This document shows, in pieces, positions 2,512 to 47,889 of a stretch of 64,000 nt of DNA. A model generated the notes under the pieces. It was not told the DNA's origin and made no database searches. It was given only the letters and a program-made list of their open reading frames with translations. The DNA is from an uncultured Clostridia bacterium (GTDB lineage Bacteria; Bacillota; Clostridia; TANB77; CAG-508). Every line of letters starts with the position of its first letter. Position 1 is the first letter of the stretch. A program made the translations under genes and the position numbers. Location of the stretch: assembly GCA_944390975.1 (NCBI GenBank), contig CALXRX010000002.1, positions 1 to 64,000 on the forward strand, given 5' to 3'.

Positions 2512-3841
2512 ACTTACCATCCTCCCATCTTTTCTTTATTTGCACTCCCCATTCTTTTCTTCTTACATCATCCCAACATCTAGTCCTAGCATGAGAATGC
2601 CATTCTTGTTTTATAATTGTTCCATCATAGAAATAGAACTCCAATAAATCATCACCAATTGGTATAATTTTTTCTACCTTTTCATCAAATAGATTTGAAT
2701 CAAATTCTTCTATTCCTAATACTTTACTTGAAGCAATTTGTAATTCTTTTTCTGGTATTATCTTCGCACTACAATATTTAGCACCTTTTTCACTTTTTGT
2801 TCTACAAATCCAAACATAATAAATTTCTGTACTATATTTAGATTGTCTTTTTCCGCTTCGTCTATAATTCATTCCACATAAAGGACATTTAACTTTACTT
2901 GTAAACGCTGTTGTATTTAAACTTCTATTTCCTCTAGCACCTAGTGTTCTTCTTCTTTTTCTTTCTTCTTGAACTTTTTCAAATATCTCCATTGGAATTA
3001 TTGCTTCATGGGTGTTTTCAACAAAGTATTGCGGTAACTCTCCTCTGTTTTTCTTTGACCTTTTAGTTATTGGATCAACGATATATTCCTTTTGAAATAA
3101 TAAATTCCCTGTATATGTAATATTACTTAAAATAGCTCTTATTGATGATGCCCCAAAATCTCCACCTTTATATGACTTAATATTCATTTCTTGTAATTGC
3201 TTTCCAGTTGTTTCTGCTGATATTCCTTTTAGAAAGTTTTCATATATTATTCTGACTATCTTAGCTTCATTTGGTTCTATAACTAAATGTTCATCTTCCC
3301 ATCTATATCCATAAATACCAAACTTACCATTAGGTATACCTTGTTGAAACCTTTTTCTTGTTCCCCATTTCACATTGTTGCTAATTGATATAGACTCCTC
3401 TTGAGCAAATGATGCAAGTATTGAAAGCATTAATTCTCCATCTCCTGACATTGAATTAATATTTTCTTTTTCAAATCTAACTTCAATTCCAAGCTTTTTC
3501 AGATGTCTTACTGTATTTAAAAGGTCTACTGTATTTCTTGCAAATCTTGAAATGGATTTAGTAAGAATAATATCAATTTTTCCTTGTTCGCAATCATCTA
3601 ATAATCTTTTGAACTCATCTCTATTTTTTATGTCTGTTCCACTAATTCCTAAATCAGCATAAACTCCAGCATATTCCCATTCAGGATTTTTTTGTATTAG
3701 ATTATTATAAAAACTTACTTGTGCAGAGAATGAATGCATCGTTCTTCCCTTATCAACTGATACTCTTGCATAAGCAGCTACTTTTTTTAGTTTTGGAAGT
3801 TCAATCTTTGTAGGTTCAATTTTGGTTATTTTTTTCTTCAT
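2474..3841 (-). CDS. Large serine recombinase without coiled-coil arm (subunit 2)
   Basis: This serine recombinase has 455 residues: resolvase domain (YARVS, about residue 27; SRFARN), Recombinase domain, and a zinc ribbon with CPLC and later cysteines. The long coiled coil of its downstream neighbour is missing. The start at 3841 is supported by GGAGG seven bases upstream and by alignment with the paralogue upstream; a longer reading would run into that gene. The N-terminal half is closely similar to the gene at 3816-5162, which points to tandem duplication. The C-terminal tail is tryptophan- and arginine-rich. Confidence 0.9.
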   Translation of the reverse strand: MKKKITKIEPTKIELPKLKKVAAYARVSVDKGRTMHSFSAQVSFYNNLIQKNPEWEYAGVYADLGISGTDIKNRDEFKRLLDDCEQGKIDIILTKSISRFARNTVDLLNTVRHLKKLGIEVRFEKENINSMSGDGELMLSILASFAQEESISISNNVKWGTRKRFQQGIPNGKFGIYGYRWEDEHLVIEPNEAKIVRIIYENFLKGISAETTGKQLQEMNIKSYKGGDFGASSIRAILSNITYTGNLLFQKEYIVDPITKRSKKNRGELPQYFVENTHEAIIPMEIFEKVQEERKRRRTLGARGNRSLNTTAFTSKVKCPLCGMNYRRSGKRQSKYSTEIYYVWICRTKSEKGAKYCSAKIIPEKELQIASSKVLGIEEFDSNLFDEKVEKIIPIGDDLLEFYFYDGTIIKQEWHSHARTRCWDDVRRKEWGVQIKKRWEDGKYVKECKNDTCNC

Positions 3842-5162
3842 TTTTTCGCCTCCACATCTCCTTACTTTTTTCACTTCTAGCTTTTTTACGTTCATCTGTC
3901 CAAGATTCTTTTTTGCCATTATATTCCCATTTTTCTTGTTTTACTGTTCCATCATTAAAATGAAATTCTAAAATATCATTCCCAATAACAATAACTTTTT
4001 CTATTAATTCATCAAAAACTTCTGGGTCAAATTCTTCTAATCCAAGAACCTTGGTTGAAACTCTTTTTAATGCAATCTCATTTATAGTTTTTCCAGGACA
4101 GGCTTTTGATCCACCTGTTAATCTTGTACCACAAGTCCATATATGAGCTTTTATTCCATCAGAATTTTTAGACCTTGAATTTCTCATATAATTCTTACCA
4201 CATATCGGACATTTTACTCTACATGAAAAGCAAGTTATATTCTTACCGAAATTAGCTCTCTGACCTTCTGCTTTTCTTCTTTTTCTTTCTTCTTGAACTT
4301 GAATAAACATCTCCATAGGAATTATTGCTTCGTGATTATTCTCGACATAGTATTTTGGAAGCTGTCCATTATTTTTTTCTTTTCTTCTTACCAGTGGATT
4401 TGGTGTATAAGATTTTTGTAATAATAAATTTCCAGTATAAGTTATATTTAATAGCATATCTCTAATAGTTCCAATATTAAAATATCCTCCATTAGTTGCA
4501 ATCACACCCATCTCTTTAAGTTCTATCTCCATTCTTTCTGCTGATACTTTATTTAAATACATTTCAAATATGAGCTTTACTATTTTTGCCTCTTCAGGTT
4601 CTATTACTAAATTATCATCATCCCAACGATACCCATATATCTTGTATCTGCATTGAGGTTTCCCACTTTCAAATTTCTTTTTTATAGCCCATTTAATATT
4701 GTTACTTGTTGATATAACTTCTTCTTGAGCAAATGAAGCTAATATTGAAAGCATAAGTTCTCCATCACCTGTTAGAGAATTAATGCCTTCTTTTTCAAAT
4801 CTAACTTCTATACCTAATTCTTTTAAACGTCTTACTACCTTTAATAGGTCAACTGTATTTCTAGCAAATCTTGAAACAGATTTTGTAAAAATAATATCAA
4901 TCTTGCCTTCCTCACAATCTTGTAATAACCTTTTAAAATCATTACGCTTTTCAATTCCAGTACCACTTATACCTAAATCAGCATAAACTCCTGCAAATTC
5001 CCATTCTGGATTTTTTTGTATTAATGCATTGTAGTAACTAACTTGAGCAGAATAAGAATGCATTGTTCTCCCTCTTTCAACCGATACTCTTGCATAAGCA
5101 GCCACTCTTTTAAGTTTAGGAAGCTCTATGTTTTTTGTTTCTAATTTTGTTATTTTTCGCAT
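3816..5162 (-). CDS. Large serine recombinase without coiled-coil arm (subunit 3)
   Basis: First gene of the recombinase operon, 448 residues. It has the same layout as subunit 2: resolvase domain with YARVS, Recombinase domain, zinc ribbon (CPIC and later C residues), then a charged tail (about residues 405-445) with repeated W and K/R that resembles a small NUMOD-like DNA-binding motif. GGAGGTGTAAT precedes the ATG. The promoter at 5190-5218 lies immediately upstream. It overlaps the next recombinase by 26 bp. With the other two it probably forms a multi-subunit integrase. Confidence 0.9.
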   Translation of the reverse strand: MRKITKLETKNIELPKLKRVAAYARVSVERGRTMHSYSAQVSYYNALIQKNPEWEFAGVYADLGISGTGIEKRNDFKRLLQDCEEGKIDIIFTKSVSRFARNTVDLLKVVRRLKELGIEVRFEKEGINSLTGDGELMLSILASFAQEEVISTSNNIKWAIKKKFESGKPQCRYKIYGYRWDDDNLVIEPEEAKIVKLIFEMYLNKVSAERMEIELKEMGVIATNGGYFNIGTIRDMLLNITYTGNLLLQKSYTPNPLVRRKEKNNGQLPKYYVENNHEAIIPMEMFIQVQEERKRRKAEGQRANFGKNITCFSCRVKCPICGKNYMRNSRSKNSDGIKAHIWTCGTRLTGGSKACPGKTINEIALKRVSTKVLGLEEFDPEVFDELIEKVIVIGNDILEFHFNDGTVKQEKWEYNGKKESWTDERKKARSEKSKEMWRRKNEEKNNQN

Positions 5163-26518: not shown

Positions 26519-26547
26519 TATATCACTCTAAAACACATATTTATCAA
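26519..26547 (-). promoter_or_regulatory. Phage promoter P3
   Basis: TTGATA (26547-26542) and GATATA (26524-26519) have a 17-base spacer, with flanks GACTTGATAAATAT and TTTTAGAGTGATATAT. The -35 overlaps the stop of the C5 methyltransferase gene. Confidence 0.65.
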
Positions 26548-27917
26548 GTCATGTGTGCATAATATTCAATTCCAGATAAAACAAAGTAGACACAAGGAAG
26601 TGCTACACCGTTTCCCCATAATTTATATTCAGCTGAATCAGAATGAGGATTTTTTAGCCATTTAATTATTTGATTATCGGTTTTTTCTCTTTTATTTTTC
26701 CCTTCTGCTTTTGAGCTTTCATTAAATATTTCTCTCCAATATTCAATATCTTCTTTGGTTGGTTCTTTTGTTTCCAAATTATCACACCACCAATCAGGAA
26801 AACCTTGAAGTCTTGCACATTCTTTTGGTGTAAGTCTTCTTACTTTCAACTTATCATTTACTATTGGTGGATCCATATAATCAGTTGCTATTAATGTATT
26901 AGCTAAATTTTCACTTGCTCTTGTATGAAATGAACTCTTACTTGTTGAATAAACAATTGCAACTCCACCTTGATTTGAATTAGGAAAATTCCCATTTGTA
27001 TCAAGGGTTCTTGATGTTTCAGTTTCATAAACATTGTTTCTTGCATTCTTTGTTCCTTCTGATGTTAATCTTATGTCATAGTTTTTTGAATGAACAACAA
27101 ATGGTTGATTATTACCACCAGTACCATAAGTTGAAAGTATTGTTGGTGCTATATCTAACGGTCCTTTATATCTTAAATCTTGTGAATGGTTTTCAAACAA
27201 ATCTAACTTGCTTGATTTTCTAACGCTATCCTCAATGTTTCTGGTAGAGTCTTGCCACGACTTAAAGCTCTCTTTAGAATACCCTGACAAGCCCTCTGAC
27301 TCAAATAATATTTTTGAGGCACTGTTTCCTCCAAAATCTGCGACAAGGTAGATACGATTTCTTCTCTGGGGAACTCCCCAAAACTGAGCATCAAAAACTC
27401 TCCATGCGATTGAGAAATCATCTCCCATGATTGCTCCTGCTTGTTCCCACTTTGTAGGTTTAGGAATAGACATTTCTTGATGTTTGACTTTGCAGATTTC
27501 ATCAAGGACACTTTTGAAGTCATCTCCTTTGTTTGAGGAGAAGGCTCCTGTGACATTTTCCCAAACAATATATCTTGGTTTTTCTCCATTTGTTGCACAC
27601 CTCATTTCTTTTACAATTCTTATTGCCTCATAAAAAAGATTAGACCTACTTCCGTCTAATCCTGCTCTTTTACCCGCTATCGACATATCCTGGCATGGAC
27701 TTCCAAATGTAATTATATCTACGGGTTCTACTTCATTTCCTTTTATTTTAGTAATATCACCATAATGCTTTACTTTAGATAATCTTTTAGTAGTTACTCT
27801 AATTGCAAATGGATCTACCTCTGAACTCCATACAGGTTTAATACCTGCTAACATTCCACCTAATGGGAAACCACCACTTCCATCAAATAAACTTGCAAGT
27901 GTTAGTTCTTTATCCAT
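26544..27917 (-). CDS. DNA C5-cytosine methyltransferase (phage-borne)
   Basis: The enzyme has 457 residues. All major motifs are visible: I (LFDGSGGFPLGGMLAG), IV with the catalytic cysteine (FGSPCQDMSIAGKRAGLDGS), VI (WENVTGAF), VIII (QRRNRIYLVADFGG), IX (LTPKECARLQGFPDWW) and X (LWGNGVALPCVYF). It methylates cytosine at an unknown site. No restriction enzyme is adjacent, so it probably protects phage DNA from host restriction. It overlaps the upstream methyltransferase by 8 bp. Confidence 0.95.
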   Translation of the reverse strand: MDKELTLASLFDGSGGFPLGGMLAGIKPVWSSEVDPFAIRVTTKRLSKVKHYGDITKIKGNEVEPVDIITFGSPCQDMSIAGKRAGLDGSRSNLFYEAIRIVKEMRCATNGEKPRYIVWENVTGAFSSNKGDDFKSVLDEICKVKHQEMSIPKPTKWEQAGAIMGDDFSIAWRVFDAQFWGVPQRRNRIYLVADFGGNSASKILFESEGLSGYSKESFKSWQDSTRNIEDSVRKSSKLDLFENHSQDLRYKGPLDIAPTILSTYGTGGNNQPFVVHSKNYDIRLTSEGTKNARNNVYETETSRTLDTNGNFPNSNQGGVAIVYSTSKSSFHTRASENLANTLIATDYMDPPIVNDKLKVRRLTPKECARLQGFPDWWCDNLETKEPTKEDIEYWREIFNESSKAEGKNKREKTDNQIIKWLKNPHSDSAEYKLWGNGVALPCVYFVLSGIEYYAHMT

Positions 27918-29169
27918 TATTAACTCCTACCTCTTTAACTAAATCTTTGTACAGTATCTTCTCACCATTTCTAATTACATACACATTTTCACTATCGTTA
28001 GTATCTTCAACATATCTTCTTAAAATAACTGATGCATACTTTTCATCAAGTTCCATTGTGTAACAAATTCTATTCATTTGTTCACAAGCCATAAGTGTTG
28101 ATCCACTACCACCAAATGTATCTATAACAATTGCATTAGCTTGAGTAGAATTGTTTATTGGATAAGCTAATAAATCAAGTGGTTTAGAAGTTGGATGATT
28201 TGAGTTCTTTTTAGGTTTATCAAAATTCCAGATAGTTGTTTGCTTTCTATCTGAATACCATGGATGTTTTCCATTTTGCATAAATCCATATAAAATAGGT
28301 TCATGTTGCCATTGATAATCAGAACGTCCAAGTACTAGACTATCTTTTACCCATATGCAACAACCTGCTAAATGAAATCCTGCATCAATAAATGCTTTTC
28401 TAAAATTCAAGCCTTCTGTATCAGCATGGAATATATAAGCAGCTCCACCATTTTCTAAATGCTCTGCCATATTCTTAAATGATGAAAATAAGAACTTATA
28501 AAAATCATTATTTTTCATACTATCATTTTGAATTGTTAATCCATCTGAACTTTTGAAAGCTACATTGTAAGGTGGGTCGGTTAAGATTAAGTTTGCTTTT
28601 TTATCTTCCATAAGTTTTGCTACATCTTCACTTGATGTTGCATCACCACACATCAATTTATGCTTTCCTACAAACCACACATCCCCTCTTTCAACAAAAC
28701 TTGCTTTTTCAAGGGCAGCAGTTAAATCAAAATCATCATCTTTTACTTCTTTATCATCTATTCCAAATAAATCAGCTAGTTCTTTTTCATCAAATCCTGT
28801 ATAACCTAAGTCATATCCTAGATTTTGTAATTCTTCCATTTCTATTTTTAATAATTCTTCATCCCAACCTGCATCCATAGCCATACGGTTATCTGCTAAA
28901 ATGTATGCTTTCTTTTGAGCATCAGTTAAGAAGTCAGCAAACACACAAGGTACTTCATTTATTCCTTCTTCTTTTGCTGCCATCAATCTTCCATGACCCG
29001 CAATCACATTGAAATCTCTATCAATTATGATTGGATTGACAAAACCAAATTCTCGAAGTGAAGAACGAAGCTTTATAATTTGCTCAGCTGAGTGTGTTCT
29101 GGCATTATTCACATAAGGCACTAATTTATCAGTCGATATTAGTTGCATTTCTGTTGTTGTTCTAGACAT
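27910..29169 (-). CDS. ParB-nuclease-like domain fused to N4/N6 DNA methyltransferase
   Basis: The protein has 419 residues. Residues about 5-100 form a ParB/Srx-like domain (DKLVPYVNNARTHSAEQIIK, GHGRLMAAKEEGINEVPCVF). Residues about 150-410 are an amino-methyltransferase with DPPYNV near residue 195 and the SAM motif DTFGGSGSTLMACEQ near residue 360, in the order of beta-class enzymes. This fusion is common in Firmicutes phages. The ATG at 29169 follows AGGAGG by eight bases. SAM may come from the synthetase encoded just upstream. Confidence 0.93.
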   Translation of the reverse strand: MSRTTTEMQLISTDKLVPYVNNARTHSAEQIIKLRSSLREFGFVNPIIIDRDFNVIAGHGRLMAAKEEGINEVPCVFADFLTDAQKKAYILADNRMAMDAGWDEELLKIEMEELQNLGYDLGYTGFDEKELADLFGIDDKEVKDDDFDLTAALEKASFVERGDVWFVGKHKLMCGDATSSEDVAKLMEDKKANLILTDPPYNVAFKSSDGLTIQNDSMKNNDFYKFLFSSFKNMAEHLENGGAAYIFHADTEGLNFRKAFIDAGFHLAGCCIWVKDSLVLGRSDYQWQHEPILYGFMQNGKHPWYSDRKQTTIWNFDKPKKNSNHPTSKPLDLLAYPINNSTQANAIVIDTFGGSGSTLMACEQMNRICYTMELDEKYASVILRRYVEDTNDSENVYVIRNGEKILYKDLVKEVGVNNG

Positions 29170-29181
29170 TTTCTCCACCTC

Positions 29182-29964
29182 CTAAAAAAGTCCCCATTCA
29201 GCAAATTTTTCAAATCCACCGATAGACTCAATATATTCTTTAGCAATATTAACTATTTCTTCATAAGGTCTTCCATCTACTTCTTTATCACCAATAGCAC
29301 AACATAAACTTACTACTTCTCCTGTTTCTTGTGCTTTCAAAAAAGCATAAATATTTACTGATACATCTGCTTTTGATAAATCTTTTCCATGTAAGCCTCC
29401 GCCAGTTACTCCATCTGCCATATCAGAACCTAATTTTCTATTTGTAGCACCTGTATCAACATCAGTGCCTCCAGTCCAATCTCCTAAAGGATTAATTATT
29501 GCATCTTGATACAATTCTTTTAATTCTTCAGTCTTGCAATTACTTTGACAGATTATTAATTTTTCTTTATCTAAAATGTATTTGCCATCACTTGAATATT
29601 TTTCATAAATAAAACGAGCAATTTCTGATAACTTTTTTTGCTCGTCTGTTAAAGGCACACCCTTAAATATTCCATTGTCACCACATCTTATTTCTTTTTC
29701 TTGATTCTTAGATAAATGTGTATCTTGTGGCACTAATACAACATCTTTCTCAATATCTCCTGATATTCTCAAAATAATATTCTCTATATCTTTCTTATCA
29801 TAATTTACTGAAGTTTCAACAATAACATGGCAAACTCCATGCCCAATTAAAACCTCAACTGCAATTTTAGGATTTGTTTCTAATTTATATCCTAAATCTA
29901 CTATTGCTCCTGCAATTCTATCCGCTACTTTGTCTGGGTGCTTTGGATTAACTTTTTCTATCAT
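29182..29964 (-). CDS. Short phage S-adenosylmethionine synthetase
   Basis: The protein has 260 residues against about 385 for cellular MetK. KHPDKVADRIAGAIVD carries the ATP-binding histidine and lysine motif; CGDNGIFKG corresponds to the GAGDQG loop; NPLGDWTGGTDVDTGATNRK and GGGLHGKDLSKAD match the phosphate-binding region. The C-terminal domain of cellular enzymes is shortened, but all catalytic signatures remain, so I do not call it a pseudogene. It overlaps the small terminase gene (TAATG) and precedes two DNA methyltransferases, its likely consumers. Confidence 0.88.
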   Translation of the reverse strand: MIEKVNPKHPDKVADRIAGAIVDLGYKLETNPKIAVEVLIGHGVCHVIVETSVNYDKKDIENIILRISGDIEKDVVLVPQDTHLSKNQEKEIRCGDNGIFKGVPLTDEQKKLSEIARFIYEKYSSDGKYILDKEKLIICQSNCKTEELKELYQDAIINPLGDWTGGTDVDTGATNRKLGSDMADGVTGGGLHGKDLSKADVSVNIYAFLKAQETGEVVSLCCAIGDKEVDGRPYEEIVNIAKEYIESIGGFEKFAEWGLF

Positions 29965-38321: not shown

Positions 38322-38885
38322 CTATTCTAAAAAGTCATCTTCATCGCTAGTTGCGAAGTCGTCTTCAGCCCTTGATTTTCCACCAAGACTTTCTCCGTCT
38401 TTTATTTTTTGTAAGTTATTTAATCCGCAGGCAATACCTTTATTACCATTTGAATTAAATGCATATAAGTTAATACTTGCTCGTCCATATACTCCACTAT
38501 AAACTTCAGAGCGTTCTAAAATAGGTTGAAGAGCTGCATCTACGATGCCCGGTGCTTTTGGAGAATTTGCATTTATAAAGTAACATCCTTTATATGCCTC
38601 GTCATCTGGTCTTTCTAAATCTCCATCACGAAGTGGTGTCTTAATTGCTTGTAATGCTGGTACACTTTTTCCTGTTCCTTTTAATTTACTTTCTCCTTCT
38701 TTATATGCTACTTCAATCGCCTTTTTAATCTTCTCAACTGTTACTGTGTCAGTTTTTGGAATTATTAATGATACACTGTATTTTGGTGTTCCTCCATTGA
38801 TAGATTTTGGCTCCCAAACATTGCAGTAGCTCCATCTTGTATTTACTCCTGTTATTACTTTTGTCGAATTAAAACTATTATTCAT
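38322..38885 (-). CDS. DUF2815 phage single-strand DNA-binding-like protein
   Basis: The protein has 187 residues. Typical segments are KVITGVNTRWSYCNVWEPKS, KYSVSLIIPKTDTVTVEKIK and SGVYGRASINLYAFNSNGNK; the acidic C-terminus (DDFATSDEDDFLE) resembles SSB tails. DUF2815 proteins have an OB-like fold and accompany phage PolA and DUF2800 genes. The ATG at 38885 has GAGAGGAAA upstream and overlaps the DUF2800 gene by 8 bp. Confidence 0.9.
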   Translation of the reverse strand: MNNSFNSTKVITGVNTRWSYCNVWEPKSINGGTPKYSVSLIIPKTDTVTVEKIKKAIEVAYKEGESKLKGTGKSVPALQAIKTPLRDGDLERPDDEAYKGCYFINANSPKAPGIVDAALQPILERSEVYSGVYGRASINLYAFNSNGNKGIACGLNNLQKIKDGESLGGKSRAEDDFATSDEDDFLE

Positions 38886-40014
38886 AATTATTTTCCTCTC
38901 TTTCATCTTTAAAATCATTTATTTGCATGGCTGGTCTTTTATCACTCTCCAGTACGAGCGTTGGTTTGCCTTGAGGTTTATAAATTAGATTTCCTAATAC
39001 CTCATTAAATTTTGTTCTTCCTAGTAGGTTTGTCATTGCTGTGATTCCTAGAACTTTCTTTTCGTAAGGATCATATCCTGCATTTTTAACTGCTGTTGCT
39101 ACTTCTTCTTCATTTAAGTATTTTCGATTAGAACGTCCTTCAACCAGTTTCAAATTTGGATAATTCTTTCCAAGAAGGGCTTGATTTAAAGCATAATCTT
39201 TTACATCAGATACCCAAGATACCAAATCACTTGATTTAATAAGAATTGATGATATCTCTTCATCTGTTAATTCAGCAGGTTCTTCAAAATCATACTTTGC
39301 AAGTTCCATATTGTATTCAGCTCTCTTTCTACAAGTTGCTTTTATCTTGCAAAACTGACAGTGGTCTCCTGCTTTGAACTCGCCTTTTCCTTCGTAGGCA
39401 AGTTCTGCTATTGGCTTTAGTGTATTTTCTGCCCAACTATATAACTCTGTAACACTCATGTTTGAAACACTGATGTTTTCTATTCTTGGCTGATAAATCA
39501 CCATGCATACTTCTTCAATGTCATATAAGCTGTTAAATAGTTCTAGAGCTCCAATTGCATAGCACATCATTTGTGAATTATCTTCGCTCTCAACTTCTAC
39601 ACCTTTGCCATATTTAAAATCAATTATATAAAGTTTTTTGTCTGCTATGATTAAGCAATCTCCTGTTCCAAATCCCTCTGGAACAAATCTTGAAAAGTCT
39701 AGTCTTTGTTCTATTAAAACAAGTGGGTCTTTACAATAGCTCTTTGCCTCTTCTATAACTTCCATGACATAACTTGCATAATCATTAGCACATCTTTCCA
39801 TTTCTTCATTATAGTAAGATAAACTATCTGTTGGATCTTGCATTTTAATTCCTAGCATTGACTTAACTTTATACTCACAAAGTGTGTGTGCATCTGTACC
39901 TTCTTTAGCATATTCAGATGTTGTATCTTCTACCTCTGCACATAGCTTTGCTGAAGGAGGACAATTGAGCCATCTTTTACTACTAGATGCTGATAATATT
40001 GCATGACTGCTCAT
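38878..40014 (-). CDS. DUF2800 RecB/Cas4-like nuclease
   Basis: The protein has 378 residues with a PD-(D/E)XK fold: SSSKRWLNCPPSAKLCAEVE, the active-site stretch TGDCLIIADKKLYIIDFKYG near residues 115-135, and a cysteine cluster HCQFCKIKATCRKRAEYN that would hold an Fe-S cluster as in Cas4/AddB. It probably processes DNA ends with the neighbouring single-strand binding protein. It overlaps that gene by 8 bp. Confidence 0.9.
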   Translation of the reverse strand: MSSHAILSASSSKRWLNCPPSAKLCAEVEDTTSEYAKEGTDAHTLCEYKVKSMLGIKMQDPTDSLSYYNEEMERCANDYASYVMEVIEEAKSYCKDPLVLIEQRLDFSRFVPEGFGTGDCLIIADKKLYIIDFKYGKGVEVESEDNSQMMCYAIGALELFNSLYDIEEVCMVIYQPRIENISVSNMSVTELYSWAENTLKPIAELAYEGKGEFKAGDHCQFCKIKATCRKRAEYNMELAKYDFEEPAELTDEEISSILIKSSDLVSWVSDVKDYALNQALLGKNYPNLKLVEGRSNRKYLNEEEVATAVKNAGYDPYEKKVLGITAMTNLLGRTKFNEVLGNLIYKPQGKPTLVLESDKRPAMQINDFKDEREENNYE

Positions 40015-40015
40015 A

Positions 40016-40351
40016 TTAAATTCCCTCCGTTTCTTTCAACAACTCATCATACTTTGATGCGTCTAATTCAGATAATTTGTTAACTCCAAATTTAGTAAGT
40101 AACCCTTTTACTTCTGCTGTTTTACCTGCTCTAGATTTTTCTGCTAAAATTGCTCTTACTTCTTCTAAAGTTACAGACTTTTTATTTTCTTTAGGTTTTT
40201 CTGGAGAACTTGAAAAGGCTGATTCAATACTTCCTACAATGTCATTAATCGATGTTATAATGTCGCTTACTGTAGATAATATTTCACTTAACTTATTTGT
40301 ACTTTTTCTTAGTTCTTCTAGTTCTAAAGATAAATTATTCATCTTTGCCAT
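40016..40351 (-). CDS. Phage hypothetical protein with SAP-like C-terminus
   Basis: The protein has 111 residues. The N-terminal half is helical (possible coiled coil 5-45), then a proline/lysine linker. The C-terminal half (KSVTLEEVRAILAEKSRAGK, GLLTKFGVNKLSELDASKY) resembles small DNA-binding helices seen in many Clostridia phages in this position. The protein is often mislabelled rRNA biogenesis protein. Function is unknown. GGAAGGAGG precedes the ATG. Confidence 0.65.
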   Translation of the reverse strand: MAKMNNLSLELEELRKSTNKLSEILSTVSDIITSINDIVGSIESAFSSSPEKPKENKKSVTLEEVRAILAEKSRAGKTAEVKGLLTKFGVNKLSELDASKYDELLKETEGI

Positions 40352-40553
40352 CGGTACTTCCTCCTTCCTTTATTTCTTTGACATCAACGGATTGTACTGA
40401 CTGACCAGGGTCTAATAAAAATACTTGTCTATAATCTCCAAATAGAAATTTGATGATTTTCTGTGGCAAAGTTAATTGACCACCTCGCAGTATTTTCACA
40501 TTGTTGCCATTCTCATCAGTTACGTTGATTGTGACCTTATGCTTTATAGCCAT
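40335..40553 (-). CDS. Small phage hypothetical protein
   Basis: The protein has 72 residues, beta-rich (HKVTINVTDENGNNVKILRG), with an acidic tail; family not recognised. It overlaps the next gene by 17 bp and starts after GGGAGG. It is the second gene of the early operon, after the sigma-like gene; a hairpin at 40572-40601 lies between them. Confidence 0.6.
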   Translation of the reverse strand: MAIKHKVTINVTDENGNNVKILRGGQLTLPQKIIKFLFGDYRQVFLLDPGQSVQSVDVKEIKEGGSTDGKDE

Positions 40554-40625: not shown

Positions 40626-41162
40626 TTAACCTCTCTTGAAATTTTCTTTTATAAACTTCAAAATTTTTTCCTTGTGCTTATGAACACTCGGTATAGAAGT
40701 TCCCATAATTGCGGCTACTTCAGTAAGTGAATAACCTTCTAGAAAATGAAGTTCATATACTCTTTGTTGTTTTTCAGTCATCATTGAAACAACTTCTCTT
40801 AACCTATCTACTTCATCAGATGTATCTTCTACAGCAGTCGTATTATCTGCAAGATAGATACACTTGTCCTGATTTCCTTCCTCATCAAAGATTGAATCAA
40901 TAGATAAGTTCCATATCTCTTGATATTTTTCGCCTGGGTGTTTTTCTTCCCAATCCTTAATATCTTGTTTTTCTTTTTCAGATATAGGTCTATGCCAATT
41001 CTTATGGTTGTAATAAACCTCTGAATCATCTAAAGAATGTAATTTTTTGATGAACTCCTCTGTTACTCCTTCCTCTCCTGGTTTAATTGTGATTTTAGTT
41101 CCATCGTCAAAGATGTAGGTATAAGTACCCCTGTTTTCTTGTTTTGTTTTATGACTTTTCAT
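40626..41162 (-). CDS. Sigma-70 region 4-like early regulator
   Basis: The protein has 178 residues. The C-terminal part (MTEKQQRVYELHFLEGYSLT, EVAAIMGTSIPSVHKHKEKI) is a sigma-70 region 4 HTH. The N-terminal 100 residues are acidic and of unknown fold. It is the first protein gene of the phage early operon. It has GGGAGG eight bases before its ATG, and its ATG directly follows the TAA of a leader ORF. It may direct RNA polymerase to phage promoters. Confidence 0.75.
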   Translation of the reverse strand: MKSHKTKQENRGTYTYIFDDGTKITIKPGEEGVTEEFIKKLHSLDDSEVYYNHKNWHRPISEKEKQDIKDWEEKHPGEKYQEIWNLSIDSIFDEEGNQDKCIYLADNTTAVEDTSDEVDRLREVVSMMTEKQQRVYELHFLEGYSLTEVAAIMGTSIPSVHKHKEKILKFIKENFKRG

Positions 41163-41294
41163 TTAAAAGTCCTCCCTTCCTTTTGCCTGTTTCGGTGCAG
41201 AAGGAAAGGAAAAAAGAGTCCGTGCTTTTTTAGTACACGGACTCCTACTACCTGATTTAGGGTGCAATAAAGAGAGGGTACTAAAAATAGGCAT
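41163..41294 (-). CDS. 43-codon leader peptide of the early operon
   Basis: An ATG at 41294 preceded by AAAGG opens a frame of 43 codons (begins MPIFSTLSLLHPKSG) that runs through the terminator hairpin at 41210-41244 and ends with TAA directly against the ATG of the sigma-like gene. Its last codons contain the ribosome site of that gene. The arrangement is typical of translation-dependent attenuation. It is too short for normal gene calling, and the peptide has no family I recognise. Confidence 0.5.
   Translation of the reverse strand: MPIFSTLSLLHPKSGSRSPCTKKARTLFSFPSAPKQAKGREDF
41210..41244 (-). terminator. Intrinsic terminator inside the early-operon leader
   Basis: GAGTCCGTG (41216-41224) and CACGGACTC (41236-41244) form a perfect 9-bp stem followed on the minus strand by six T residues. 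It lies upstream of every early gene, so it must be bypassed for early expression. Confidence 0.75.
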
Positions 41295-41356
41295 TTTTAC
41301 CTTTACGGTATTAAATAGCTTTTATTCGTATCCTTCTGCCCTATTGCAAACTCAGG
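41251..41356 (-). promoter_or_regulatory. Structured leader RNA upstream of the early operon
   Basis: On the minus strand CCTGA pairs with TCAGG (41356-41352 with 41255-41251), GCAATA with TATTGC (41347-41342 with 41269-41264), and TACC with GGTA in a small hairpin at 41298-41310 that overlaps the leader-ORF ribosome site. The intrinsic terminator comes directly after. It is an attenuator or riboswitch candidate of no class I recognise. Confidence 0.5.
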
Positions 41357-41412
41357 CATCAAAACATTAAATTTATAAAAAGCAAAAAGTTATTCGTTTT
41401 TGTATTTTTTTT

Positions 41413-41627: not shown

Positions 41628-42449
41628 ATGACTTTTTCAAATTTCGCTAAATTACTAAAACCAATCATTGGTGGTTCAGATAACACAGTTGAATTTACTA
41701 GGAAACTCTTTATAGCTATGATTGGAGAAGATAACTCTACAGTAATTGAAAATAAATCAGATGATAGTTTTAAAGCCTATTACAATGGAAGATCAACAAT
41801 AAATGGAATAGCTAGAGAAATATCTCCTGTTGCTGACCTAGAGAACTTTGTATCTTTCCTTGATAATTTTGGAGACTCAGTTTCAGAGAAACTTTGTGAT
41901 GCTTTTTCAGGAAGTATTGATGAAATAGACCTACAAAATATTAATTACAAAATAGCTAGTTGCTTTGATGAAATCATAAAAAAAGCAGCAGCTACTCAGA
42001 GGAAAAGCTCATCTAATAAAGATGAACCACTTAATATTCCCGTTGAGCAGACTGCTGCTAGTTTCCCTTATACAGAAACTGATAATGAATTGCTTACTGA
42101 ATTTAATTCAGATTATGAGGAAATCATGCTTACTTTAATTAGAGGAGACTATGCATCCTATTTAGTAGACATGAGTATTCCTAACAAAATTAAAAAGTTA
42201 TATCAAGAAAAATGGAAAGAAAAATCTAATGATTTTGTAAATCCAATGCTAAAATCAGATGTATTTGGAATTTTAGGTGTTCTTGATGAATTAAGTACAA
42301 GTTTCATTTCATGTAACTTAAATACAAGTGTAATCAAAAGTCAAAGAATAAAAATAAGAAATTTATATGTTAAACTTCATCCAGAAAAATATGACAAAAA
42401 CATCCCATATGATATTTTGTTAGATGATTGGAATGATAGTGAATTTTAG
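41628..42449 (+). CDS. Unknown protein, first gene of the helicase/RM operon
   Basis: The protein has 273 residues, soluble and mainly helical. I recognise no named domain. Residues about 50-115 (FKAYYNGRSTINGIAREISP, ADLENFVSFLDNFGDSVSEK) followed by an IASCFDEIIKKAA helix form a compact helical module. I recall similar sequences beside ATPases and nucleases in gut Firmicutes, but I cannot verify this. A charged linker (residues 120-145) leads to a second helical domain ending in VKLHPEKYDKN. GAGGAG precedes the ATG. It ends 15 bp before the helicase gene, so the two probably work together. Confidence 0.6.
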   Translation: MTFSNFAKLLKPIIGGSDNTVEFTRKLFIAMIGEDNSTVIENKSDDSFKAYYNGRSTINGIAREISPVADLENFVSFLDNFGDSVSEKLCDAFSGSIDEIDLQNINYKIASCFDEIIKKAAATQRKSSSNKDEPLNIPVEQTAASFPYTETDNELLTEFNSDYEEIMLTLIRGDYASYLVDMSIPNKIKKLYQEKWKEKSNDFVNPMLKSDVFGILGVLDELSTSFISCNLNTSVIKSQRIKIRNLYVKLHPEKYDKNIPYDILLDDWNDSEF

Positions 42450-42464
42450 AAAGGATGATAATAA

Positions 42465-45224
42465 ATGCCAACAATTGATAATTCTATAAAAAGAATAGAT
42501 AGTGTTATATGTAGACACTTAGATGAAATCGAAGACTCTTCTCGTGGTGCAATTTCACAAGATATATTAGAGCAACTAATAAAATTCATTAATCATGTAA
42601 TGCTAAAATTTTATGCCAATGGCAAAGAAATCGACATCAACGAAGAAAACTTAACTAAAGCAATCGAATATTGCCAAATAAATAGCGACCTATATACCCT
42701 ATATAAGTTTCGTAACTATTTGCAAGTTGTCACTACACAATACACTTTAGACGAAGATGGATCAGAACGATTAATGTTAAAGTATTATCAGTACTTACTA
42801 GAAACAAAAAATCTTCTTAGCCAGCATTTTGGTATTGAGGTACTGCATAATTTAGATAAATTCCCTTTACATCTAGATGATACCTTACAGGAATACTATA
42901 AAAAAATTGCGGAGAAAATAGAACGTCATCCTACATCATTACACGCAGATAGTAAAGATAAATATTATATCCAAAAAATCAAACCTCTATTTGTAGATAG
43001 AAAGATATATTATGAAGTTACATTTACTCCAATTGATGACAGGAAAAATAAATCTAAGACAAACAGAGTTATTGCTTTTACAAAACTCCCAGTCAAAAGT
43101 AACTACGCATCTAAATTTCACCTTATAAATGAAACTATCGAAATTTTAGGCAAAACCATGCCTATTATAGTTATTGATGGTTGGGAAGTTTCTATAAGAG
43201 ATTGCGAATTTCAAAATTTCATATCAATAATAAATGGAGACAAAATAAAAGTAGGTTATCCAGAACAGCGATTAATTTGTGAATTTCTTACTAAAACAAA
43301 ATACACCTTAAATAACCTAATAGACTTCCCAGATTCTGCATATAATGATATTACTAATAGATGGAAAAGTAGCCTAAAAAATCCTATATTTATTCCAACA
43401 TTAGATTATTGCAGAAACTTAATATTAAGCGGCAAGAACGGAAAAAACATTCTAAGATACCTACTATATAATATGAATAACGTCATAATAAAAAGTCAAT
43501 ATTCATCAGGGTATTATAGTAAATATTATGAGGAATGGATTAAAGCTGGTAACGGTCATCTATCTAACTTATATTTAGATATTGGTAGTAAGCCATTTGA
43601 TGATTTACCATTTAACCGCTCTCCTCTTGGACATAATCCAAAATTATCTGCAATATTTGAGTGCATTCCTTGTAATGGTAATCGTCATGAATTATTTGCA
43701 AGATTTATAGAAAATAATACAGAAGGCAAAGGACAATTATTCACTGATATTAGTGAATTGACTAATTACCCAGATTATCAGGAACTTATAAAAACATATA
43801 ATGAAAATCTTTACTCAGGGCATAGACCTGAGGGCGATATAATGCTAGAACATAATCAAGTATTTATAAATGATTATAAACTAGACACTTGTACCATAAT
43901 TGAAAAATTACAAGAATTAGCTGAGTCAGGTATAGAAAACTACAGCACTGATGTTGATGTATGGCTACTCTTTGATGGCTATGAAATAGATTGTGATGAA
44001 AAGAAAGGTATTATTAGACAGATATTTTCCGATTCAAAAGTTGGTGTAATATACGGCTCTGCTGGTGTAGGAAAATCCACATTAATAAACCACGTTTCAC
44101 ACTATTTAAACGATGCCCCTAAATTATACTTAACTCAAACAAATCCAGCAAAAGAAAACTTAATTAGAAAAATTGATGCAGAAAATACTACATTTTCTAC
44201 AATTGAAAGCTTTAAGCACCAAACTACCTCAATGGATTATAAATTGTTAGTTATTGATGAATGTAGTACTGTTAGTAATAAAGATATGGTTGAGATACTT
44301 CAAAAAGCAAACTTTGAAATGCTTTTATTAGTCGGAGATACTTATCAAATTGATGCAATACAATTTGGAAACTGGTTCTCAGTACTAAAGGCATTCTTAC
44401 CTGATACTGCTGTTTTTGAACTTAAAAAACCTCATAGAACAAAAAACAAACAACTGCTAGAGCTTTGGGATAAAGTTAGATGCATGGATGATACAGCTAA
44501 GGAAGTAATTGAAAGAGAAAGTTATTCTCTAAAAGTAGATGAGTCATTACTTTCCTCACTTGAACCTGACGAGGCTATTTTATGTCTTAATTACGATGGA
44601 CTATATGGTATAAATAATATTAACAGGTTTTTACAAGAAAGTAATCCAAACCCAGCAGTTACTTGGGATGTTCAACAATATAAAGTTGGTGATCCTATAC
44701 TATTTCTTGATTCAGATAGATTCAGACCAGTCATATACAACAATTTGAAAGGAATAATCCGAGATGTTAAAATCATGGATGTAGATACTCCTAATGAACG
44801 CATCCGATTTGATGTTGAAATTCCTAAATTAGTATATGAAAGAGATACGTATGGTACAGGTCTTGACCTTCTTGAAAACAATGAAGAAGAAGAAACATCT
44901 CTTATAAGATTTTATGTATATAAACTTAAAAGTGCTGATGAAGAAGGAGAAGATTTTAGAACTATAGTTCCGTTTCAAGTTGCTTATGCAGTTTCAATAC
45001 ATAAAGCTCAGGGATTAGAGTTTGAATCCGTCAAAATAGTAGTAACTGATGAAGTTGAGGAATTAGTAACGCATAACGTTTTCTATACTGCTATAACAAG
45101 AGCAAGAGAAAAACTAAAAATCTACTGGACACCAGAAGTAGAAGAAAAAGTTATAAATAGAATTAAACCTAGGGACATAAGTAAAGATGTTGAAATTTTA
45201 AAAAACTATATTGATAAAAAGTAA
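42465..45224 (+). CDS. Large protein with unknown N-terminal half and SF1 (RecD-like) helicase
   Basis: The protein has 919 residues. Residues 1-525 match no family I know. From 531 a superfamily 1 helicase begins: Walker A GSAGVGKST (531-539), Walker B VIDECSTVSN near 597, motif III LVGDTYQIDAIQ near 622, an insert with a small barrel (residues 735-840), and motifs V and VI as VSIHKAQGLEFESVKIVV and YTAITRAREKLKIYW. The C-terminal arrangement is that of RecD2/UvrD-C proteins. AAAGGATG precedes the ATG. The following gene is 13 bp away. Confidence 0.85.
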   Translation: MPTIDNSIKRIDSVICRHLDEIEDSSRGAISQDILEQLIKFINHVMLKFYANGKEIDINEENLTKAIEYCQINSDLYTLYKFRNYLQVVTTQYTLDEDGSERLMLKYYQYLLETKNLLSQHFGIEVLHNLDKFPLHLDDTLQEYYKKIAEKIERHPTSLHADSKDKYYIQKIKPLFVDRKIYYEVTFTPIDDRKNKSKTNRVIAFTKLPVKSNYASKFHLINETIEILGKTMPIIVIDGWEVSIRDCEFQNFISIINGDKIKVGYPEQRLICEFLTKTKYTLNNLIDFPDSAYNDITNRWKSSLKNPIFIPTLDYCRNLILSGKNGKNILRYLLYNMNNVIIKSQYSSGYYSKYYEEWIKAGNGHLSNLYLDIGSKPFDDLPFNRSPLGHNPKLSAIFECIPCNGNRHELFARFIENNTEGKGQLFTDISELTNYPDYQELIKTYNENLYSGHRPEGDIMLEHNQVFINDYKLDTCTIIEKLQELAESGIENYSTDVDVWLLFDGYEIDCDEKKGIIRQIFSDSKVGVIYGSAGVGKSTLINHVSHYLNDAPKLYLTQTNPAKENLIRKIDAENTTFSTIESFKHQTTSMDYKLLVIDECSTVSNKDMVEILQKANFEMLLLVGDTYQIDAIQFGNWFSVLKAFLPDTAVFELKKPHRTKNKQLLELWDKVRCMDDTAKEVIERESYSLKVDESLLSSLEPDEAILCLNYDGLYGINNINRFLQESNPNPAVTWDVQQYKVGDPILFLDSDRFRPVIYNNLKGIIRDVKIMDVDTPNERIRFDVEIPKLVYERDTYGTGLDLLENNEEEETSLIRFYVYKLKSADEEGEDFRTIVPFQVAYAVSIHKAQGLEFESVKIVVTDEVEELVTHNVFYTAITRAREKLKIYWTPEVEEKVINRIKPRDISKDVEILKNYIDKK

Positions 45225-45236
45225 GGAGGTTAATTT

Positions 45237-45473
45237 ATGCATATTAGTTATAACAAATTATGGAAATTATTAATTGATAAAGGAATGAATAAGCAGGATT
45301 TAGGAAAAATTGCAAACATTAGTCCTGCGTCTATAGCAAAACTCGGAAAAGGTGCAAATGTGACCACAGATGTTCTTCTAAAAATATGTGAAGCATTAGA
45401 ATGCAATCTTGAAGATATAATAGAAACCGTAAAAAATGAAGGAGATGAACAAAATGAGTACTCAATTAAATAG
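45237..45473 (+). CDS. Small Xre regulator, C-protein-like
   Basis: The protein has 78 residues with one HTH: YNKLWKLLIDKGMNKQDLGK, NISPASIAKLGKGANVTTDV, LLKICEALECNLEDIIE. Small Xre proteins overlapping the restriction gene are the control (C) proteins of several type II systems. Here the gene overlaps the next one by 20 bp. AAGGAGG precedes the ATG. It probably tunes expression of the restriction and methylase genes; the palindromes at 41413-41445 and at 46420-46429 are candidate sites. Confidence 0.85.
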   Translation: MHISYNKLWKLLIDKGMNKQDLGKIANISPASIAKLGKGANVTTDVLLKICEALECNLEDIIETVKNEGDEQNEYSIK

Positions 45474-46374
45474 CAATATCAAATTTGTAGGGACAAACCC
45501 TATTATTAATTCAAAAGCATCAGAGACATATGTTTCTGTAATTTTCACTTACAACTCAAAAACATGGAAAGGATATGTTCCAATTGAATATCGAAGAACA
45601 GGAGTATCAATTGACTTTGATGACAAGGATAAATTATATCAACACCTTAATCAAGTATATGATGATATGAACCCATCAAAATTTGATGCTTGGAAAGCAG
45701 AACAAGAACTTTTTTGGGCTAGTAAACCAAATGCAGATACAACCAAAGCATTCTTTGATAAATTAGTGGAAGGTGGATGGAAATGTGGTGCTTGTGAAAT
45801 GCCACGTAATCCTAATCCTCAAAGAAGAATTCAAGATTTAAAAGAATTTGGATATACTATTGCTACTGATTTAGCCCATTACTGTCCAAACTGTAATAGA
45901 AATACAAGTCAAAGGATTTTACTTCCTATTCCACGTGGTGGAAATACAGGAAATGGTTATGAAACCTGGTCACCAGCCCTTAGAAAACGAATCATTAGTA
46001 TTCTTGACAATTTTGATGTCTATGAATGTGTTACTACCCCACACTGTTTACCTGATCATAAATTTTCAGAGATAAGATGGGATGATAATACAAAAGCAGA
46101 AAATCCAGATACCATGACTGATGATGAAATCAGACAAAAATTCCAATTGATGACTAACCAAAGAAATCAACAAAAAAGAGAAGTTTGTAGAAACTGCTTT
46201 CAAACTGGAAAAAGAGGTCAAATTTACGGAATACCATTCTTCTATGCAGGTGGTCCATATTGGGATAATAACATTCCGCAAAAAGGAAAAGAAGCTGAAA
46301 AAGGATGCATCGGATGTCCTTGGTATGATATAGCTGAATGGAGAAAAAATCTCCTTGATAAAATAGATAAATAA
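45454..46374 (+). CDS. Candidate type II restriction endonuclease, HNH-type, zinc-binding
   Basis: The protein has 306 residues. Cysteine pairs CGAC (111-114) and CPNC (144-147) frame RNPNPQRRIQDLKEFGYTIA, a stretch typical of HNH restriction enzymes that read short sites. Further on come DHKFSEIRW (201-209), the NQRNQQKREVCRNC block (235-248) and GCIGCPWYDI near 284, giving a His...Asn metal centre and zinc ligands. The call comes from motif memory and from the neighbouring C5 methyltransferase; no match was run. The ATG at 45454 has AAGGAG nine bases upstream; earlier ATGs lie inside that site. Confidence 0.65.
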   Translation: MSTQLNSNIKFVGTNPIINSKASETYVSVIFTYNSKTWKGYVPIEYRRTGVSIDFDDKDKLYQHLNQVYDDMNPSKFDAWKAEQELFWASKPNADTTKAFFDKLVEGGWKCGACEMPRNPNPQRRIQDLKEFGYTIATDLAHYCPNCNRNTSQRILLPIPRGGNTGNGYETWSPALRKRIISILDNFDVYECVTTPHCLPDHKFSEIRWDDNTKAENPDTMTDDEIRQKFQLMTNQRNQQKREVCRNCFQTGKRGQIYGIPFFYAGGPYWDNNIPQKGKEAEKGCIGCPWYDIAEWRKNLLDKIDK

Positions 46375-46390
46375 AATAATGCTAAATATT

Positions 46391-46431
46391 TCTTGATATC
46401 ACTTGATATTACTTGAATAGTTAGCTAACAT
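46391..46431 (+). promoter_or_regulatory. Methyltransferase promoter with three 10-bp repeats and a palindrome
   Basis: TCTTGATATC, ACTTGATATT and ACTTGAATAG follow each other with an exact 10-bp period (46391-46420). GTTAGCTAAC (46420-46429) is a perfect palindrome overlapping a TAACAT -10 box; TTGATA lies 17 bases upstream. This suggests separate, regulated expression of the methyltransferase. Confidence 0.5.
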
Positions 46432-46458
46432 ATATAAAAATGAAAGGAGCAAATACTA

Positions 46459-47889
46459 ATGGATATAAAAAGTATTGGTAGCATTTGTTCTGGTATTGAG
46501 GCTGCATCTGTAGCATGGAAACCTCTAAAAGTAGAATTTGATTGGTTCTCTGAAATTGCAGATTTTCCATCTATGGTTTTAGCTAGTAAATATCCAGATG
46601 TCCCAAATTTAGGAGATATGAATGATATACCAAATAAAATAATAAATAAAGAAATTACAGCACCTGATTTAATTTGTGGCGGAACACCATGCCAAGCATT
46701 TTCTTTCGCTGGTAATCAAAATGGTCTTAATGATGATAGAGGAAATTTAACTCTAAAATTTGTAGATATTATTAATGCAAATGATAAAATTAGAATTGAA
46801 AATGGTCAAAAAAGAACAGTTGTATTCTGGGAAAATGTTGAAGGTGTGCTTACAGATAAAACAAACGCTTTTGGATGCTTAGTATCATCACTTGCAGGAC
46901 TTGACAGTCCGATAGAAAAGAAAAGATGGGCATCTTCTGGTTTTTTAAGTGGTCCTACAAGAAATGTGGCTTGGAGAGTCCTTGATGCAAAGTTCTTTGG
47001 ACTACCTCAGCAAAGAAAAAGATTATATGTTCTTGCTGGAGATAAAGACTTCCATCCAGAGGATGTGTTATTTGAAAAAAGCACTAAAAAATTACAGGAT
47101 TTTCCTGATTGTGAATTAACATTTGAAAAAGAAGGACATCGATTTGAAGTTTTTAGAGGATATACTGACTGCTTATATGCTGCATACGGAACAAAATGGA
47201 ATGGTAATGCCGCAGCCTTAAATGGTTCATTATTTGTAGTACAGGATGATAGAATAAGACGTTTATCACCTCTTGAAACTGAACGTTTGATGGGATTTCC
47301 AGATAATTATACTGATTTACCTAGAGCAAGAAAAACTAATAGATATCAAGCAACTGGAAACTCATGGGCAGTTCCTGTTGTTAAATGGCTAGGAAAACGA
47401 ATAATTGATTCTAAACTGCCTACTTTAAATCTTGATCCTGTTGAATTGTATAAACAAGGATTAGCTGAAAAAATAAATGATTCTACATATTTAATGCTAT
47501 TTGGAAAAGATATTGTCACTATTAATAATGACTTAAAAATAAATGGAACATCAACTCCAGAAAATTGTACTTTTGGAAATATGAAAGATATTGTATCACC
47601 TGACGCTCCAGAAGATATTTATATTTCCCCAGTAGGATGTTTTGGAATAGTTAGAAGAAAACGAGAACGCAATTTGAAAATCAATTCACGTCTTGAAGAA
47701 GTATTGCTTTCTATTTCTTCTAATATGTCTCCAGAAGAAATAGAAAAAAGGTCTAGAGTTCAAAAGCGTGGAAAATTTAGTGACATATCTAATGACGATG
47801 ATTCATCAAATAATGACTCAAGTGATGATGAAGATGCATCAAATAACAATGTTCAAGTATCAATTTTTGATTTAGCAACTAATGAGTAA
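46459..47889 (+). CDS. DNA C5-cytosine methyltransferase with acidic tail and clamp-like peptide
   Basis: The protein has 476 residues. Motif I is SICSGIEAASVAW, IV GGTPCQAFSFAGNQNGLNDD with the catalytic cysteine, VI FWENVEGVL, VIII QQRKRLYVLAG, IX LSPLETERLMGFPDNY, X YQATGNSWAVPVV. After motif X it has about 155 extra residues: a folded part (to about 435), a serine/aspartate/asparagine-rich acidic linker, and the end QVSIFDLATNE. QVSIF fits the bacterial sliding-clamp binding consensus. It probably methylates the site cut by the adjacent nuclease. AAAGGAG precedes the ATG. Confidence 0.93.
   Translation: MDIKSIGSICSGIEAASVAWKPLKVEFDWFSEIADFPSMVLASKYPDVPNLGDMNDIPNKIINKEITAPDLICGGTPCQAFSFAGNQNGLNDDRGNLTLKFVDIINANDKIRIENGQKRTVVFWENVEGVLTDKTNAFGCLVSSLAGLDSPIEKKRWASSGFLSGPTRNVAWRVLDAKFFGLPQQRKRLYVLAGDKDFHPEDVLFEKSTKKLQDFPDCELTFEKEGHRFEVFRGYTDCLYAAYGTKWNGNAAALNGSLFVVQDDRIRRLSPLETERLMGFPDNYTDLPRARKTNRYQATGNSWAVPVVKWLGKRIIDSKLPTLNLDPVELYKQGLAEKINDSTYLMLFGKDIVTINNDLKINGTSTPENCTFGNMKDIVSPDAPEDIYISPVGCFGIVRRKRERNLKINSRLEEVLLSISSNMSPEEIEKRSRVQKRGKFSDISNDDDSSNNDSSDDEDASNNNVQVSIFDLATNE

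Follow-up and report, generated by a model that had tools for sequence, protein, structure and literature searches.

The window, by which we mean the whole stretch of 64,000 nt from an uncultured Clostridia bacterium analyzed here, contains a prophage whose early operon lies on the minus strand, starts at position 41162, and is headed by a gene for a sigma-70 region-4-like protein (hereafter the sigma-like gene; table 1). Divergent from the leader of this operon, the region 41628-47889 (plus strand) encodes an unknown protein of 273 aa, a 919-aa SF1-type helicase, an ICEA-like protein (PF05315), and a C5 cytosine DNA methylase, a block that is perhaps restriction-modification or defense cargo; in other loci, the genes divergent from the leader include a helicase in TPDSL_ph1 (L054) and a methyltransferase in L206. 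By eye, we also noted a tandem of three large serine-recombinase-like genes on one side of the prophage (937-5162, minus strand) and a MetK-like (S-adenosylmethionine synthetase) protein (29182-29964, minus strand) that adjoins two DNA-methylase-like genes (26544-29178).

The leader of the early operon is structured, and its elements are arranged in the 5' to 3' order P1, P2, a, b, P2', P1', b', a', a second partner of P1, the Shine-Dalgarno (SD) sequence of the sigma-like gene, and the ATG. The fold of the whole leader (41160-41380) has a z score of -5.82, and the region 41251-41356 alone folds at -28.0 kcal/mol (z -3.56) with none of the shuffled sequences folding equally well. A preliminary description of this DNA had reported this structured region on the minus strand, a UACC/GGUA hairpin, and a perfect 9-bp terminator with six T residues inside an open reading frame (ORF) of 43 codons, the stop of which abuts the sigma-like ATG, and all of these are present in the window. 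The terminator was not listed by a simple hairpin scan with a loop limit of 8, presumably due to its 11-nt loop. Absent from that description were a strong hairpin that buries the sigma-like gene's own SD and two long-range complementarities, one between strands b and b' and the other between the core of strand a and a'.

Two observations on other parts of the leader were made by eye. Many leaders (examples are L054, L055, L065, L067, and L069) carry, ~25-50 nt upstream of P1, a small hairpin of unconserved sequence and then a linker rich in A (AAAUAAAAUAUCAC), which is possibly the 5' end of the transcript; none is obvious in the window. In some members, GGGC after P2 and GCCC after P2' form a candidate pseudoknot.

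Table 1. Positions in the window of the leader elements and of the operon genes behind them; OFF and ON denote the two predicted folds.
Feature	Position	Strand	Evidence
Whole leader element, 198 nt, from P1 5' strand through ATG of sigma-like gene	41160-41357	-	Covariance model matches and alignment with 39 other distinct leaders
P1 5' strand, GCCTGA; partner 41250-41255 in OFF, 41185-41189 in ON	41352-41357	-	Near-invariant letters; no swap signal
P2 5' strand	41340-41348	-	Covariation with P2 3' strand, z -6.1 (n = 40 leaders)
Strand a, SD-like, core GCAGAAGG at 41332-41339	41325-41341	-	Own-partner test a:a', z -11.2
Strand b, TTTTTAGTAC; ON partner is b' within the terminator	41278-41287	-	Own-partner test b:b', z -10.6
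P2 3' strand	41263-41269	-	
P1 3' strand, TCAGGT	41250-41255	-	
Intrinsic terminator, stem GAGTCCGTG/CACGGACTC (41236-41244/41216-41224, nine perfect pairs), then TTTTTT (41210-41215)	41210-41244	-	Fold z -5.51 (41-nt hairpin stretch); stem covariation, 91.7% of cells paired
b', GTACTAAAAA, terminator loop and final base of 5' arm	41227-41236	-	Complementary to b, 10 of 10 pairs in the window
Anti-SD arm, CCTTTCCTTCTGC	41197-41209	-	Contains a'
a', CCTTCTGC, part of anti-SD arm	41197-41204	-	Complementary to strand a
CAGGC, alternative partner of P1 5' strand in ON	41185-41189	-	CAGGC near SD in 23 of 40 leaders; weak swap signal, z -2.1
SD region of sigma-like gene; OFF partner is the anti-SD arm	41171-41180	-	Predicted unpaired (window): 0.01 in OFF, 0.62 in ON
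ORF of 43 codons, judged unconserved and outside the mechanism	41163-41294	-	
Sigma-70 region-4-like protein, 178 aa, first gene of early operon	40626-41162	-	PF08281, E 2.1e-10; phrog_1740
Next operon genes: phage proteins of 72 aa and 111 aa, DUF2800 exonuclease, single-stranded DNA-binding protein	38322-40553	-	

Distribution of the Leader Family

Relatives of the leader were collected by protein and pattern searches rather than by DNA similarity; when the window leader was compared with the DNA of named phages, none of the 196 records covered 80% of the query, and the matches were short, chance-like pieces. A protein search found one viral relative and five relatives in bacterial assemblies, one of which encodes an identical protein. 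The search of named phages with the protein returned eight records; the element is present in Terrisporobacter phage TPDSL_ph1, NatCom_43819, and Gardnerella phage vB_Gva_AB1, and the Streptococcus and Syntrophomonadaceae phages among the eight records were found to be without it. A search with a protein alignment gave 56 sigma-like loci, 23 of which have the element upstream of the sigma-like gene according to a covariance model (E value of 0.004 or less), with two more (L072 and L095) recognized by eye; the remaining loci have other leaders or are cut off upstream. In addition, a DNA pattern based on the 5' half of the core matched 77 viral contigs, and 74, with the element ahead of a sigma-70 region-4-like gene, were retained after we dropped L141 and L171, which look like chance matches, and L146, which is incomplete. 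Together with 16 leaders found otherwise, these hits make up a set of 90 leaders, with some contigs reached twice, which 8-mer similarity reduced to 40 distinct representatives and then to 23 strictly different ones. Because the pattern fixes the P2 5' strand and GGATAC, some of the conservation in this part of the core results from the search itself; a', b, and b' lie outside the pattern. Of the two covariance models, R1, in which the P2 and P3 columns are offset, was used for finding members only and not for counting pairs, and R2 was built with corrected columns.

Further members were identified in phages of Ruminococcus and Oscillospiraceae, two inspected ones of which are filed as Ca. Heliusvirales, on a Peptoclostridium plasmid, and in 7 other genomes among the 391 searched in the class (the window's own genome, which has a single copy, excluded). 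One candidate, L201, was rejected as a false match located inside a coding gene. A protein search of family genomes (48 of 292 genomes) yielded mostly weak sigma-domain matches, which were left out of the leader set. The family is thereby known from phages of Clostridia, Erysipelotrichaceae, and Gardnerella, the last a host from another phylum, Actinomycetota, and most of its members come from metagenomic contigs to which no host name is attached. Behind the 40 distinct leaders, the first gene matches phrog_1740 (RNA polymerase sigma factor) in 37 cases and the Sigma70_r4_2 domain model (E value of 0.01 or less) in 33. The identity of these sigma-like proteins to the reference goes down to 13%, and the leader RNA is more conserved than the protein encoded behind it.

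No Rfam 15 model had a gathering match in the window except for a tRNA, the best weak matches being unrelated, and the isrK and C4 models gave no match at an E value of 10 or less in the window region. In open-licence literature we did not find the leader described; an unnamed entry among the thousands of candidate RNAs in PMC8040213 may correspond to it. Judged by sequence comparison, the leader apparently represents a large and undescribed phage RNA family.

The same kind of gene is also preceded by leaders of other types. A second, unrelated type, present in 14 related loci (L096-L103, L105, L106, L108-L110, and L112), carries AATCCGC, its own terminator, and GCGGATT before the SD. Its 5' strand has two possible pairing sites, one right behind the terminator and one immediately ahead of the SD; the covariation is weak for both (X:Y z -2.2 and X:Z z -1.9, nine distinct leaders). 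These loci hint that RNA control of the sigma-like gene may have arisen more than once. By eye, we further observed a third type (L074, L075, L081, L082, and L086), in which a strand such as GAAAUUCCUUCAUU has two possible partners, AAUGAAGGAAUUUC lying upstream and the SD region, an arrangement that suggests a translational switch, and a fourth (CATACCGAGCAACGGAGCCGAG and onward, plus a long hairpin) before the sigma-like gene in L104, L114, L116, L119, and L058.

Covariation and Two Exclusive Folds

The pairings of the leader resolve into two predicted folds. In OFF, P1, P2, and P4 close the core, strand a faces strand b (P3), the terminator forms, and a' helps to hide the SD; ON consists of the nested helices a:a' and b:b' and of the helix between the P1 5' strand and its second partner, which is nested as well. 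Because P1 and P2 cross a:a', the two folds are mutually exclusive.

We evaluated each helix with an own-partner test, in which the duplex energy of a strand with the partner from its own phage is compared with the energies obtained when partners are swapped in from other phages. For the 40 distinct leaders, a:a' averaged -20.75 kcal/mol with own and -16.50 kcal/mol with swapped partners (z -11.2), and b:b' averaged -11.63 against -8.22 kcal/mol (z -10.6); none of 20,000 permutations was as low as the own-partner value for either pairing. Related leaders are not independent, a concern answered in part by the 23 strictly different leaders, in which z was -8.9 for a:a' and -8.2 for b:b', and in part by control pairings, four of five of which were null (z -0.2 to -1.0 with 40 leaders and -0.6 to -1.1 with 23), the fifth, b against the region after the terminator, being weakly positive (z -1.6; -2.2 in the strict set). 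Helices of OFF also pass the test in the 40 leaders (P2, z -6.1; P4, z -7.4; SD hairpin, z -7.5), and P1 with its second partner gives a weak signal (z -2.1). P1 and P3 (a:b) gave no own-partner signal in the same set since their letters hardly vary, and the contact that would sequester a and b together is thus without independent support.

A structure-independent alignment led to the same picture: the ON helices have 52 cells changed on both sides, compared with 26.3 in shuffled and at most 37 in slid alignments, and P2 and the terminator have 37 doubly changed cells compared with 15.4 in shuffled ones. At position -8 from the end of b, for example, the pair with b' is G-C in 26 leaders, U-A in 8, G-U in 2, A-U in 1, and C-G in 1, with 2 unpaired, counts that use the best duplex of each leader and are therefore biased towards pairing. 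Ten leaders had been held out, of which seven are near-copies that add little (six at 8-mer similarities of 0.91-1.00, L198 and L199 being identical over the compared stretch, and L206, also at 0.91). In the three less similar ones (L207, L208, and L202), a:a' is kept (-20.3 to -22.8), and b:b' is clear in L207, slight in L208 (-9.8 vs. -8.9), and unsupported in L202 (-9.4 own vs. -10.1 swapped). At the level of sequence comparison, these data demonstrate a family in which the helices of both folds covary and the folds exclude each other, and the conserved, covarying stems proposed as a check in the preliminary description were found in related prophages.

A Predicted Switch and Competing Explanations

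When the 40 leaders were forced into ON in predictions, the mean number of local terminator pairs fell from 11.7 to 0.7 and the mean unpaired fraction of the SD rose from 0.24 to 0.77, increasing in 36 of 40; the SD stays closed in the other four (L057, L161, L162, and L195), in some of which it is misassigned. OFF is predicted to be the more stable state in 35 leaders and ON in 5, the predicted cost of ON having a median of 9.5 kcal/mol and reaching 17.7 kcal/mol in the window, where the switch may therefore be weak or need a strong input. Before the 3' arm of the terminator exists, the predicted probability of b:b' exceeds 0.5 in just 3 of the 40 leaders, and plain minimum-energy folds already include a:a' in 7 of 40. 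The stability of OFF together with the rarity of early b:b' pairing makes termination the predicted default, with an input needed to free b and a; the assignment of OFF as default and of the other fold as ON is in this sense a prediction from folding models.

Taking sequence and folding models together, we consider it likely that the leader is a bistable double-lock riboregulator with OFF as its default. In that default state the core would be closed by P1, P2, P4, and the a:b contact P3, and the terminator would be formed, with the SD of any leaky read-through mRNA held in a hairpin as a second lock. Some input would open the core or prevent its formation and so release strand b, which would pair with the 5' arm and loop of the terminator (b') and cancel termination. 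Once RNA polymerase has passed, the SD-mimicking strand a would capture its anti-SD partner a', and the P1 5' strand would pair beside the SD, freeing the SD for translation of the sigma-like protein, which is encoded first in the early operon. We rate the leader as a new RNA family in which one core provides two strands, each predicted to cancel a different downstream lock, and it has the appearance of an on/off switch built into the phage program; its polarity, its trigger, and its action in cis or in trans are what we infer.

In its logic, the nearest experimentally studied system is by analogy the isrK locus of Gifsy-1. In the part of its published account drawn on here, a prophage leader terminates to yield a small RNA that acts in trans, read-through produces a silent mRNA for which two global folds are described, a translated uORF is required, and an anti-repressor is controlled (PMC4825925). 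On this partial account, isrK-orf45-anrP and the phage leaders have in common a terminator in a prophage leader, exclusive folds brought about by pairing between leader and downstream sequence, and a phage regulator under control; a terminator in the leader, together with a read-through mRNA that can adopt either of two global folds, is seen in our family as well, in predictions only. The long-range pairing of isrK, however, belongs to its inactive fold, which is opposite to the polarity predicted for the phage leaders (PMC4825925), and whereas isrK needs its translated uORF, the 40 leaders have no conserved uORF between leader and regulator gene, nor do the Rfam models point to a sequence relation.

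An IsrK-like or immunity RNA is accordingly an explanation to be weighed, and one that we regard as unlikely without dismissing it. A putative short, terminated leader would pair in trans with the read-through mRNA through a:a' and b:b', either activating translation as IsrK does in Gifsy-1 or shutting off a superinfecting phage, and the cis switch would then be only part of the story. The layout shared with isrK-orf45-anrP, as far as the portion of the report used here describes it (prophage leader, terminator, and a silent read-through mRNA with two folds; PMC4825925), agrees with this, and a and b do lie within the terminated RNA with their partners a' and b' in the mRNA. The letters of b:b' vary between phages, which would give specificity, and the second gene, usually one for a small protein, encodes the anti-repressor Ant in Ruminococcus phage NatCom_2329 (L207, 3780-4547). 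On the other hand, predictions for the terminated RNA have a and b paired with each other, pairing in cis is favored, and neither the isrK nor the C4 model matches the window region at the threshold given above. C4 antisense RNA of P1/P7 resembles the leader as an RNA of a phage immunity region with two segments complementary to downstream mRNA, but in the passages of the source considered it arises by processing of a longer transcript and acts as a repressor (PMC5320573), and the Rfam C4 model has no match in the leader.

Protein-dependent antitermination, in which a phage or host protein binds the core or the core modifies RNA polymerase and RNA pairings are of minor importance, seems improbable to us. 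It would account for core letters that are near-invariant beyond the needs of pairing, and the sigma-like domain is the only constant feature behind the leader; but the covariation of the terminator arm and of the anti-SD strand with strands of the core would go unexplained, and the operon behind the leader varies. The trp leader of B. subtilis with TRAP likewise has one regulator setting both the terminator and access to the ribosome site; as the excerpted account has it, that system is protein-driven through binding to NAG repeats, and the phage leader is likened to it by logic alone (PMC4347634).

The preliminary description had favored translation-dependent attenuation by the 43-codon ORF, which in the window extends across the terminator up to the next ATG, and gene callers have annotated small ORFs at this place in some phages. 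We now judge this very unlikely. Among six close relatives compared by eye (the window, L001, and L060-L063), the start codon is ACG in L001 and L061, the frame ends early in L060 and L063, and just two of the six, the window and L062, retain an intact ORF. ORFs that span the terminator occur in 22 of 40 leaders compared with 18.6 expected from shuffles, and those starting with ATG in 7 of 40 compared with 6.5. The loss of the ATG, the early stops, and the shuffle-level frequencies do not support translation-dependent attenuation, and the leader peptide was rejected, no conserved translated ORF spanning or preceding the terminator, as in leader-peptide attenuators, having been found in the 40 leaders; an alternative start codon shortly after the SD-like strand a was also discarded, since by eye this codon is not conserved. 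What holds of the earlier proposal is the appearance of a regulated attenuator with conserved, covarying stems, whereas translation dependence, the leader peptide, and the suggested sensing of host translation or antibiotics find no support, and the conserved competitor of the terminator is strand b of the core RNA instead of a ribosome. A plain terminator behind a structured 5' end, without any switch, is the least probable explanation of all: OFF is indeed the more stable state in most leaders, as given above, but matched, covarying ON helices would have nothing maintaining them.

A Possible Sensory RNA and Its Significance

The double-lock riboregulator that we prefer has features found in riboswitches: a conserved, covarying core (P2 and P4) stands upstream of one gene type in the 40 distinct leaders, and the expression platform is exclusive with the core, in that P1 and P2 cross a:a' and b:b' breaks the terminator. 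Tentatively, and as a possibility we hold at well below even, the leaders may be sensory RNAs of a new class: in a broad group of temperate phages, an orphan core resembling that of a riboswitch would read a small molecule or a phage signal. Transcription and translation of the first early regulator might, on this tentative reading, be set together through one nested refolding. In dual-platform riboswitches, too, one conserved core sets both a terminator and access to the ribosome site, which in the sections of the source used here lies in the 3' side of the terminator (PMC2258182); the phage leader differs from that description in having two separate hairpins, each cancelled by a different strand of the core, and matches no known riboswitch class in Rfam 15.

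Decisions between lysis and lysogeny in phages have been explained mostly by repressor proteins and lately also by peptides. From its position, a role of the leader in this decision is plausible. The RNA has been kept while the protein it controls diverged to 13% identity, which suggests that, within the circuit, it is the RNA that stays constant. The design, with termination and translation placed under one core by means of two separate elements, is uncommon, and the family poses a testable question, namely what opens the core. As a marker, the leader can serve for finding such phages in gut data. If the sensory-RNA reading is true, an RNA decision switch would sit atop the phage program.
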